Source: Lysobacteraceae bacterium SCN 69-320 (GTDB taxonomy: Bacteria > Pseudomonadota > Gammaproteobacteria > Xanthomonadales > Rhodanobacteraceae). Taken from it: 64,000 bases of DNA. Below the pieces are notes generated by a model that had not been told where the DNA came from, made no database searches, and saw only the letters and a list, made by a program, of their open reading frames with translations. Both the position numbers and the translations under genes were made by a program. This document shows, piece after piece, positions 60,622 to 63,179 of this stretch; within the stretch, counting starts at the first letter, position 1; each line of letters begins with the position of its first letter. Location of the stretch: contig MEFP01000003.1 of the NCBI GenBank assembly GCA_001725155.1, positions 124,001 to 188,000 of the forward strand. Reading direction: 5' to 3'.

Positions 60622-60699
60622 GGACACCCAAAATTCAGCACAGAACTCAGAACTGGACACCCAAAAATTCAGGGGACAGCGTTCGGACATCCACAATTC
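60622..60699 (+). repeat. GGACACCCAC-type repeat cluster A (3 copies)
   Basis: Three plus-strand copies at 60622-60636, 60655-60670 and 60685-60699 of a GGACAYCCAMAATTC-like motif, spaced 33 and 30 bases apart. They lie 70-147 bases upstream of the HUH transposase gene. Short flanking words (CAGAACT) are also repeated between copies 1 and 2. Confidence 0.85.
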
Positions 60700-60768
60700 G
60701 GAATCCTCCGATACTGCGCCAGGAACTTTCCCGCTGCAACCTCAGCTCGCGCGGTCCATGCTGGGACC

Positions 60769-61719
60769 ATGGCCATCCCTCGCTCCCACCTGATTCCACC
60801 TGGCTCCGAAGGCCGCTACCACTGCATCCAACGTTGCGTGCGAAGGGCCTTTCTCTGTGGCGTAGACCGGTATACCGGCCGCTCGTTCGAACATCGGAAG
60901 GGCTGGATCGAAGAACGCCTGCACCGACTCAGCGAATGCTTTGCCATCGCGATTCACGCTTACGCGATCATGAGCAATCACTTGCATATCGTCATACAGG
61001 TCATTCCCGAGCTGATCGAAACCTGGAGTGACGGCGACATTGCTGCACGCTGGTTGAGGCTGTTTCCCTCTGCGAACGACGACGACATCGACCTCAAGCG
61101 CAAGCGAATGCTCGCTGATCCCGCACGCCTTAGCGTGATACGCAGCCGGCTCAGCAATCTGTCATGGTTCATGCGCTGCCTGGCTGAGCCCATTGCGCGG
61201 CGCGCCAATCGAGAAGACGACTGCAAAGGACGATTCTGGGAAGGGCGCTACAAATGCCAGGTCTTGTGCGATGAACGCGCTTTGCTAGCGGCAATGGCCT
61301 ACGTCGACCTCAATCCCATTCGCGCAGGCGTAGCCGAACGGCTGGATACGCCTGTTCATACCGGCGCATACGCGAGGATCAAGGCAATACGGCAGTCGCC
61401 GGAGGAACTGACGGAACCCTTGCCGCCCGTAATGGGCGTGCGGCGATGCGCGCTGTCACTCAACACAGCCGACTATCTGCAGATCCTCGACTGGACGGGA
61501 CGCATGCTGGCTTCCGGCATTCCCGACAAAACTGCCGGGCCGGCACCCACTGCTCTCGCGCTCGTTGACAGTGGTCCTGCACGCTGGGTACTGCGCGTGC
61601 GCAGTTACGGCAGCGGCTGGGCGCGGGTGGCTGGCTCGACAGAGGACCTGATCCACCTGGCCCGCCGAATCGGGCAACAATGGCTCAAGGGCATTCGTCT
61701 GGCTTCGCGACTGTATTGA
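60769..61719 (+). CDS. HUH (Y1_Tnp) transposase, REP-type family
   Basis: 316 residues. The N-terminal 'YHCIQRCVRRAFLCGVDRYTG' and 'HAYAIMSNHLHIVIQV' (HUH motif) and the later 'GRFWEGRYKCQVLCDERALLAAMAYVDLNPIRAGVA' are typical of the Y1 transposase family related to IS200/RAYT. A C-terminal extension (about 215-316) is present in this subfamily. It appears intact. It is bracketed by clusters A and B of the GGACACCCAC repeat in opposite orientations, making a probable mobile unit of about 1.35 kb. Confidence 0.85.
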   Translation: MAIPRSHLIPPGSEGRYHCIQRCVRRAFLCGVDRYTGRSFEHRKGWIEERLHRLSECFAIAIHAYAIMSNHLHIVIQVIPELIETWSDGDIAARWLRLFPSANDDDIDLKRKRMLADPARLSVIRSRLSNLSWFMRCLAEPIARRANREDDCKGRFWEGRYKCQVLCDERALLAAMAYVDLNPIRAGVAERLDTPVHTGAYARIKAIRQSPEELTEPLPPVMGVRRCALSLNTADYLQILDWTGRMLASGIPDKTAGPAPTALALVDSGPARWVLRVRSYGSGWARVAGSTEDLIHLARRIGQQWLKGIRLASRLY

Positions 61720-61856
61720 GCACCGCACTGACGTGATTGAGCCCGAAAGGGAGAATGCACCGTGGGCGGATTGTTCGCTAACGGATGGACAACGCCCCAG
61801 GTTCTGGGAGTGAGGCCTCGTTCGCCGGTCGAGAAAGAGATCTAGCCGCCGTCGCG

Positions 61857-61975
61857 ACAAATGGTGGATGTCCAGATTTCACATTCGCCCGATCTCCAAC
61901 ACCGAATGATCGGATCGTGGGTGTCCTGATCCAGATCAGCGACCAAAGCACCTCATTCCGAAATGATGGATGTCC
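61857..61975 (-). repeat. GGACACCCAC-type repeat cluster B (3 inverted copies)
   Basis: Three minus-strand copies: complement of 61857-61873 (GGACATCCACCATTTGT), 61912-61926 (GGACACCCACGATCC) and 61960-61975 (GGACATCCATCATTTC). Orientation is opposite to clusters A and C. Spacing is 53 and 49 bases. Confidence 0.75.
61926..61939. promoter_or_regulatory. FNR/Anr-like palindrome upstream of napE
   Basis: CTGATCCAGATCAG matches the FNR consensus TTGAT-N4-ATCAA at eight of ten positions (core TGAT-N4-ATCA). It lies about 135 bases before the napE start, far for a classical FNR site unless the transcript starts well upstream. Oxygen control of nap by FNR is known in E. coli. Confidence 0.4.
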
Positions 61976-62067
61976 CAATATCACCAATATCAGAGCCCCA
62001 CTACTGTGATAGCCTCACGCTCGGCATCGCCATCGCCGCGCCAGTACCCACCCGCAAGGTAGGCATC

Positions 62068-62238
62068 ATGGAGCAGAACGAAGGGCAAGTCGTTGCGAGC
62101 AAGCGGCAGGAACGCTTGGCCTTCCTGTTGCTGACGGCAGTCGTCTTTCCACTGGCGACCGTACTGATCGTGGCAGGCTACGGCTTTCTCGTCTGGATGT
62201 GGCAGCTGTTGTATGCAGGCCCACCGACGGGGCACTGA
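62068..62238 (+). CDS. napE: Periplasmic nitrate reductase component NapE
   Basis: 56-residue inner-membrane protein with one hydrophobic helix (about 18-45) ending in the NapE signature 'VAGYGFLVWMWQLLYAGPP'. AAGG lies about 10 bases before the ATG. NapE is a small non-essential membrane component; its exact role is not settled. First gene of napEFDA. Confidence 0.88.
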   Translation: MEQNEGQVVASKRQERLAFLLLTAVVFPLATVLIVAGYGFLVWMWQLLYAGPPTGH

Positions 62239-62241
62239 TCC

Positions 62242-62757
62242 GTGCCCATGCCGCGCTCGCTCACACGTCGTGCTCTGCTGTTCGGCCGCGCCTCGGCCAC
62301 GCCGGAGCCGCGTGCGTTCCGTCCTCCATGGGCCAGGCGGCCAGAACAGGAATTTTCGGCGGCCTGCACCCGTTGCGATGCCTGTATTCGGCAATGTCCG
62401 CAACAGGTTCTCGTACGCGACACGAACGGCCTTCCGCGCTTCGACCCGCAAACCGGCGAATGCACCTTCTGCGGCGAGTGCGTATCGGCTTGCGCCAGCG
62501 GCGCCTTCGACTCGTCGCTCAGTCCCCCTTGGACGCTCCTCGCCAGCATCGACAGCATCTGCCTGTCCGCCCGAGGCATAGTCTGCGCAAGCTGTCGCGA
62601 GATATGCCCTGCCTCGGCCATCCATGTACCGCCTGCCGCCCGTGGCACGGCCCTGGTCGACACAAGCCGCTGCACAGGCTGCGGCGCTTGCGTCGCCGTC
62701 TGTCCTGTCGATGCCATTCGTCTGCAACATGCCACGCCCCGGGAGACGGTCGCATGA
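62242..62757 (+). CDS. napF: Ferredoxin-type protein NapF
   Basis: 171 residues (GTG start; an ATG two codons later is equally possible). Cysteine groups for [4Fe-4S] clusters: 'CTRCDACIRQCP', 'CTFCGECVSAC', 'CASCREICP' and 'CTGCGACVAVCP'. NapF is a cytoplasmic iron-sulfur protein that helps mature NapA. Four bases after napE and overlapping napD by four bases. Confidence 0.92.
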   Translation: MPMPRSLTRRALLFGRASATPEPRAFRPPWARRPEQEFSAACTRCDACIRQCPQQVLVRDTNGLPRFDPQTGECTFCGECVSACASGAFDSSLSPPWTLLASIDSICLSARGIVCASCREICPASAIHVPPAARGTALVDTSRCTGCGACVAVCPVDAIRLQHATPRETVA

Positions 62758-63179
62758 GCTCGCCTGAACAGGATCGGGACACCCAGAATTCGCCTGGACG
62801 ATCCCGAGCACCGGACCGGGACACCCACATTCGCCAGGATCACCGGCGAAATCAGGACACCCACAATCCGCCCCCACCCGATCCAGACACCCACATAGCC
62901 AGCTTCATCATCCAGCACCGCGACTCCGCCATCGACATGCTGTCGACCGTGATCGCCCAGCACGCCGACCTCGAACTGGCCCTGCCCGGCACCACGCGCA
63001 GCATCGTCATCTGCGAATCCGCCGACCGCCACGCGGTCATGCAACGCGTCGACGAGTTGCAGGCCCTGCCCGGCGTGCTCAACGTGCTGCTGGTCTACCA
63101 CCACGCCGAGCCGGCCCAGGCACTGGCCGAGCCGCTTTCCGAATCATCCGTCACATGCGCGAACGGAGACCCGCCATGA
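62754..63179 (+). CDS. napD: NapA chaperone NapD with repeat-derived N-terminal extension
   Basis: 141 residues, longer than the usual NapD of about 85-110. The core (from about residue 47, [17 protein letters not shown], to VLLVYHH) is a normal NapD ferredoxin-like fold that binds the NapA Tat signal. Residues 1-46 are repeat-encoded: DTQN (9-12), DTHI (23-26), DTHN (35-38), DTHI (45-48), each arising from one copy of the GGACACCCAC repeat read in the same frame. The ATG overlaps the napF stop. A GTG or other start nearer the core would remove the extension, but none with a ribosome site was seen. Confidence 0.88.
62777..62896 (+). repeat. GGACACCCAC-type repeat cluster C (4 copies) within napD
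   Basis: Plus-strand copies at 62777-62791, 62819-62832, 62855-62869 and 62885-62896 (last one degenerate). Start-to-start spacings are 42, 36 and 30 bases, all multiples of three, so the reading frame of napD is preserved through the array. Confidence 0.88.

Follow-up and report, generated by a model that had tools for sequence, protein, structure and literature searches.

Inverted repeats that flank RAYT-like transposases, some of them also occurring at other genomic sites as dimers or clusters, were described in 2013 under the names TIRYT and TIRtron, in the parts of the report by Di Nocera et al. covered here (PMC3733652). In the portion of the survey by Quentin et al. (2018) available to us, the 26 TIRYT examples belong to TnpAY1 subclasses 2.1, 2.2 and 2.5, none of them to subclass 2.3; its table gives REP as 'no' for subclass 2.3, and automatic and manual searches found no REP-like sequences with subclasses 2.1 and 2.3 (PMC6006769). 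According to the same portion, members of subclass 2.3 are ~325 aa long, carry the letters WE, YVDLNP and NHYH, inserts at beta1-alphaA and beta3-alphaC (10 and 55 aa) and a long tail, and have a stronghold in the Alteromonadales (PMC6006769). Here we analyse a 64-kb stretch of DNA (the window: positions 124,001–188,000 of contig MEFP01000003.1 of Lysobacteraceae bacterium SCN 69-320), in which copies of a 15-nt motif, GGACAYCCACAATTC, surround the gene of a Y1 HUH transposase and extend into the adjoining napD gene. Judged from sequence, the copies of this motif are terminal inverted repeats belonging to the transposase's own element, which is of the TIRYT kind and belongs to no wholly new class. 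An earlier note on this DNA had proposed a different class of transposase-linked repeat; it was right in setting the motif apart from REPs, but the terminal inverted repeats of TIRYTs had already been named in the 2013 report, as far as covered (PMC3733652). What looks to be new is the structure of the arrays that the motif forms: one-way strings with a locus-specific flank, variable unit ends and truncated units. As read from the genomes compared here, the family extends the TIRYT-like kind by the ends that go with subclass 2.3 and by tagged one-way arrays.

The transposase and its closest relatives

The N70-H71-x-H73 letters and the YVDLNP stretch with Y178 are invariant across 30 homologues, and, together with the predicted structure, they bear out the assignment to the HUH transposases made in the earlier note. 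An AlphaFold model of the window protein (pLDDT 87.7, pTM 0.90) gave Escherichia coli TnpAREP (4er8_A, E 9.5e-4) as its best PDB structure match and the sole one below 0.001, followed by the ISDra2, IS200 and IS608 transposases; a PDB sequence search with a profile returned three weak matches only (E 0.31–0.68), two of them transposases. The protein scores below the cut-offs of two family models, Pfam Y1_Tnp (21 bits, cut-off 23) and NCBIfam REP_Tyr_transpos (39.4, cut-off 80), and Y1_Tnp is matched by 24 of the 30 homologues at E 0.01. Because the family scores just under the cut-off, a Pfam Y1_Tnp search of the own genome at that cut-off gave 0 matches, and the transposase copies there were located by protein search instead.

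The WE pair (W157-E158) and YVDLNP (Y178-P183) are present as in subclass 2.3. In the model, ~52 residues run from beta3 (71–78) to alphaC (131–150) and a tail starts at about residue 199; insert and tail were judged by reading of the model. The family shares with subclass 2.3 its length, WE, YVDLNP, core inserts, long tail and Alteromonadales carriers, as well as the lack of a REP-like flanking structure. It differs in having inverted end repeats without hairpins, and the window protein has NHLH in place of NHYH; the latter letters occur in some homologues, from Alcanivorax and other gammaproteobacteria. The window protein is best described as a Y1 HUH transposase whose signatures, in its sequence and predicted fold, fit TnpAY1 subclass 2.3.

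With the REPtrons, in which a RAYT is accompanied by REPs (E. coli TnpAREP, 4er8), the family has in common the HUH/Y1 fold and repeats at a neighbouring transposase, inverted on both sides; unlike them, it lacks both a conserved hairpin and a GT[AG]G foot, and its arrays are one-way rather than alternating. The IS200/IS605 elements share the HUH/Y1 core and a short 5' flank at the element end that resembles a cleavage or target site of the kind known for IS608. They are marked by subterminal hairpins and near-identical copies and so differ from the present family, whose inverted ends are symmetrical, without conserved hairpins, and whose copies have diverged (only 68% identity to the second long copy of the own genome). 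The resemblance to TIRYTs covers a RAYT-like HUH transposase, inverted repeats in place of REPs, a similar distance to the gene and, in the parts of the 2013 report covered, repeats that also lie elsewhere in the genome as dimers or clusters. What characterizes a TIRYT, inverted repeats flanking the transposase gene, is found in the window family. As for the letters, GGACAC matches the last six of the TIRYT consensus GGGGWSAS given in those parts, but its first two Gs are not conserved here: the preceding base is G in 0.56 and the next before it in 0.13 of 157 contexts (out of 437 distinct contexts, 275 of them clustered, flank duplicates then being collapsed).

The motif as the probable end of the element

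At up to three mismatches GGACAYCCACAATTC matches the window nine times, always within 60622–62869, while shuffled windows gave 1.36 expected matches, a largest count of 5, and nine or more in 0 of 100. The earlier note had counted ten copies in ~2.3 kb; nine stand at this threshold, and the tenth (62885–62899) is present with four mismatches by count. Its layout of three copies upstream on the plus strand, three inverted downstream and four in napD agrees with the coordinates (Table 1), and it was also right that no copies lie elsewhere in the window. The copy nearest to the gene (60685–60699) is placed 84 bp ahead of the start codon, and the flank AGAACT precedes the copies at both 60622 and 60655. 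In the own genome, which the note had recommended searching, 32 matches occur at up to two mismatches; the reversed pattern gave 3. Of these, 23 are clustered (in the window, near 16, 40–42 and 54 kb of contig 21, and near 139.7 kb of contig 30), the other nine being scattered singles with two mismatches. Contig 21 holds a second transposase copy and a fragment, each adjoining motif copies, and three further arrays are situated between open frames; one of these gene-less arrays (L116, G000:C30:139641-139840) lies between two frames resembling trpF and metF. A chance origin of the repeat set was ruled out by shuffles, genome counts and orientation counts.

The same arrangement is found around homologous genes. 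At 80 loci (one genome per species; 80 of 90 relatives), GGACAYCCA occurs 88 times forward and 0 times reverse within 400 bp upstream, and 1 time forward and 59 times reverse within 400 bp downstream; more than 1500 bp from the gene there are only 56 copies in 412,792 bp. A copy starts 80–90 bp before the start codon in 40 of these loci, and several planctomycetes keep the layout with a different word, GGGGCCAYCCATT by eye. This near-fixed distance, as well as the one copy that abuts an FNR-like box ahead of nap, is what might be expected of a regulatory site, serving as operator for the transposase gene or for nap and having no role as an element end; yet inverted copies behind the gene, copies in coding sequence, covarying ends and homology limits at the motif make that explanation highly improbable.

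Comparison of the two ends was based on 140 elements (each with its start in view and a protein match of 120 residues or more, after removal of repeats), 126 of which, longer than 250 aa and with full flanks, entered the tests below. A 16-base inverted-repeat scan gave an own mean of 12.7, against 11.4 for the reversed control. In a permutation blind to the motif, the left and right ends of the same element matched at 10.32 of 12 positions, against 9.82 when permuted (standard deviation 0.06; 0 of 5000; n=126), and the 56 elements without GGACAYCCA on the left still gave 10.04 against 9.53 (0 of 5000). By this measure, the two ends of an element covary, also among elements with a different end word. 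Paralogous copies also begin near the motif: among 53 pairs from 15 genome groups (at least 80% identity over at least 900 bp), homology sets in at -125 to -70 in 45, and the motif lies within 15 nt of that limit in 23.

Neither left-end alignment, of 22 and 11 sequences, contains a conserved hairpin (two predicted pairs each), and the consensus of left-end alignments A2 and A3 has no GTRG beside the motif; a REP or IS200 hairpin at the motif was therefore rejected, and the earlier note's view that the motif is no REP palindrome stands. Target duplication by whole elements was likewise rejected, since left and right flanks differ at the window element and at L160, the two elements compared, by eye. 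In A2 and A3, the leader between motif and ATG carries two TTCCYGACA- or TTTCCTACA-like words ~30 bp apart, which could be a promoter or second binding sites.

Copy number of the motif follows the transposase. Among 147 genomes, the own included, the 15-mer at up to one mismatch has 151 copies in the 42 with a homologue and 34 in the 105 without (Mann–Whitney p 7e-8); at least four copies are present in 12 of the 42 and in 0 of the 105, where the maximum is 3 (Fisher, 8e-8). The tie between repeat and transposase proposed earlier is borne out here. The motif is neither missing around homologues nor common in genomes without them, either of which the earlier note had named as speaking against its link. 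The type of word changes as well: in the congener G004 the elements have a different end word, CMRCCACGATTCGG being present there in 16 exact copies and the window 15-mer, at up to one mismatch, in 0; in 11 other genomes searched CMRCCACGATTCGG occurs 0 times in ten and once in one. The shorter word GGACAYCCAC exceeds its reversed control in G000 (34/3), G001 (82/7), G006 (150/27), G100 (84/9), G105 (51/6) and G089 (27/7), with 25 against 18 in the transposase-free G003; this 10-base word is too short for separating genomes. A search of a plasmid collection gave 13 records with a relative (12 examined). Alteromonadales are among the carriers, and in two Pseudoalteromonas shioyasakiensis records the elements end in AGACACCCA or AGACATCCA, and in TGGGTGTC. 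Viral contigs gave six pattern matches and one weak relative. Taken together, the orientation of the copies, the covariation of the ends and the presence across genomes lead us to regard the motif as the putative terminal inverted repeats of the element.

One-way arrays and their flanks

Arrays of at least three copies (42 arrays with 175 copies, after removal of arrays with the same first 60 nt) contain no reversed copies, so that 42 of 42 are one-way. Each unit begins at GGAC, runs for a variable length and is followed again by the same 5' flank, called X. Neighbouring copies share on average 5.5 nt of this flank, against 0.64 between loci, and 67 of 133 neighbouring pairs share 6–11 nt exactly. 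X itself varies by locus, with the weak consensus ARRWYYR in the 157 contexts defined above. Arrays of the G004 type, built on a different motif, likewise repeat their flank, GACCAAATC. In P. shioyasakiensis, the left arrays ahead of the ilv genes hold six copies in one record (L204:2670-2960) and two in the other (L205:2850-2960) by eye, between flanks 86–90% identical. In Pseudoalteromonas CF6-2 the interval between these neighbouring genes has no element, and this absence, like that at the orthologous place in G005 (below), speaks for a mobile element.

Such sharing of flanks resembles target duplication, and the array units might be separate insertions, with ends mobilised in trans beside an existing end and a target of ~8 nt (X) duplicated each time; the gene-less arrays of contig 21, contig 30 and napD would also suit this explanation. 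However, in the 16 of 42 arrays that have one 7-nt X in at least three copies, X is followed 69 times by the full 9-nt motif and 37 times by a motif cut after 0–8 nt, and such cut units would hardly insert. Uniform orientation in every array, and the lack of a target duplication by eye around whole elements (window, L160), also argue against separate insertions, which we consider quite unlikely.

Larger tandem blocks raise a different possibility. Hosts commonly produce tandem duplications that involve short homologies, and the motif could be an element end while the arrays grew through slippage in ordinary host replication, or through unequal exchange, with no nicking by the transposase. In L204 a three-motif block is repeated as a larger tandem unit. 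Whole elements may be repeated too: at L163 (G120:C1:3236600-3242600) two of them stand in tandem, 94.9% identical, and the duplication process may extend to entire elements. Against host slippage, the breaks of the truncated units are concentrated at the junction of X and motif, 21 of 37 lying 0–1 nt after X, and X is mostly whole, all 7 nt being kept in 69 of 83 motif copies of the 16 best arrays. This explanation is thus unlikely, if somewhat less so than separate insertions. The earlier note had suggested a repeat mobilised or recognised by the transposase; the arrays look more like local duplications than like single repeats mobilised by it.

Locus-tagged one-way arrays with truncated units found no description in the literature searched, subscription papers and supplements being outside its scope, and they are not mentioned for TIRYTs in the parts of PMC3733652 covered. 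Matches on HUH transposases and tandem duplication were unrelated by title, and among the matches listed for the letters GGACACCCA all look unrelated by title.

Possible origin of the arrays

We think it probable, though well short of certain, that a family of mobile elements has this motif as its terminal inverted repeats and that the transposase nicks at X|GGAC, after which repair piles up tandem units. The element would run X|GGACAYCCACAATTC - leader - transposase gene - inverted motif|rc(X'), X being a host-like 5' flank. TnpAREP cuts single strands, leaving a Tyr-5'-phosphate and a 3'-OH, as stated in the part of PMC8266576 covered. Because the breaks cluster at X|GGAC, with X mostly whole and the motif side variable, we infer a TnpAREP-like chemistry at that point. 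The transposase would recognise the motif in single-stranded DNA and cut between X and GGAC, so that X carries the 3'-OH and the motif strand the Tyr-5'-phosphate. Restarting from X, repair or replication would then copy a variable length of the element and return to X. The outcome would be a tandem series in a single orientation, each unit made of X and a shortened end of the element. Gene-less arrays may have arisen by the same process or from old elements that lost their gene while the arrays remained, and within genes such as napD survival would be limited to units that keep the frame.

A bolder version, which we put forward tentatively and regard as doubtful, makes the transposase a site-specific tandem-duplication engine: once X|GGAC is nicked, X with its 3'-OH would act as primer for a DNA-templated copy of the element end, and variable stops would yield one-way, locus-tagged arrays in intergenic DNA and occasionally within genes, where new stretches of protein such as the N-terminus of NapD would arise in frame. 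Such an engine might be seen, with the same reserve, as a mirror image of target-primed retrotransposition.

Several observations weigh against the explanation that we think probable. No base-exact empty site was obtained, and the own-genome element copies are old (68% identical). The exact word is found at -80 to -90 in only half of the 80 loci, in 0 of 19 from planctomycetes and 40 of 61 others, and only 11 of the 53 paralogue pairs have a right-end motif 15 nt or less from where their homology stops, with both ends so placed in 6. Of 133 neighbouring copies, 44 have only 0–1 nt of flank in common, part of them differing just in the last flank base; in the 16 best arrays, 10 of 83 copies retain at most 3 nt of X, and the truncation count in those arrays comes without a chance control. 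Zero 15-mers are present in 14 of the 42 transposase-bearing genomes. GGACAYCCAC also exceeds its reversed control in G004 (66/27) and in G020 (42/25), the latter free of the transposase, and shows no excess in G138 (22/23) despite many transposases there. Lastly, the statistics ignore kinship, genomes, loci and pairs not being independent.

If the motif is what it appears to be, an HUH transposase subclass listed as repeat-less in the portion of the 2018 survey covered gains X|GGACAYCC as a candidate DNA substrate, and the putative substrate word and the enzyme appear to change together. If nicking and copying do occur as outlined, bacteria would have a new way to grow tandem repeats at set places, which would explain how the conserved napD gained a repetitive in-frame extension. 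The array units seem to record single events, so RAYT-like repeat spread would in that case become directly testable.

The nap locus

Table 1. Features of the window around the transposase gene
Feature	Position	Strand	Details
Left-end array	60622..60699	+	Copies 60622-60636, 60655-60669, 60685-60699
Y1 HUH transposase, 316 aa	60769..61719	+	NHLH at 70-73; Y178 in YVDLNP; fits TnpAY1 subclass 2.3
Right-end array, inverted	61859..61975	-	Copies 61859-61873, 61912-61926, 61961-61975
TGATCCAGATCA box ahead of napE	61927..61938		Conserved in G005; abuts copy 61912-61926
napE	62068..62238	+	Host gene, right-end array to napD interval
napF	62242..62757	+	Host gene, right-end array to napD interval
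napD	62754..63179	+	Pfam NapD at residues 47-119
napD array	62777..62899	+	Copies at 62777, 62819, 62855, weak 62885; spacings 42, 36, 30; in frame

The congener G005 shares the neighbours of the element, with the regulator 97.8%, NapE 96.4% and the first part of NapA 97.4% identical. Its gap between regulator and napE is ~0.42 kb, against ~1.55 kb in the window, and holds no transposase; one distant homologue lies elsewhere in that genome.

The Pfam match confirms the napD identity given in the earlier note, and since it starts only at residue 47, the repeat-coded part is an N-terminal extension. Ahead of the HIASF core of NapD there are 46 residues in the window (62754–62891) and 33 in G005, where degenerate remnants of the motif are visible by eye. 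Counted from the nearest Met, seven of nine other relatives with a NapD match have 5–10 residues; longer N-termini, by reading, reach up to 15 in G096 and up to 22 in G138. The spacings of the copies preserve the reading frame, and four in-frame copies appear to have built the extension, roughly 35–40 residues of it.

The outermost right copy (61961–61975) may differ in origin from the other copies, as it partly matches the motif-less G005 sequence AAATGATGGA. TGATCCAGATCA, presumably an FNR/Dnr-like box, abuts the middle right copy and is therefore the 5' flank X of that copy; in G005 the box is conserved and the motif absent, so that this X predates the motif. With a copy touching the box, the repeat may bear on nap regulation.

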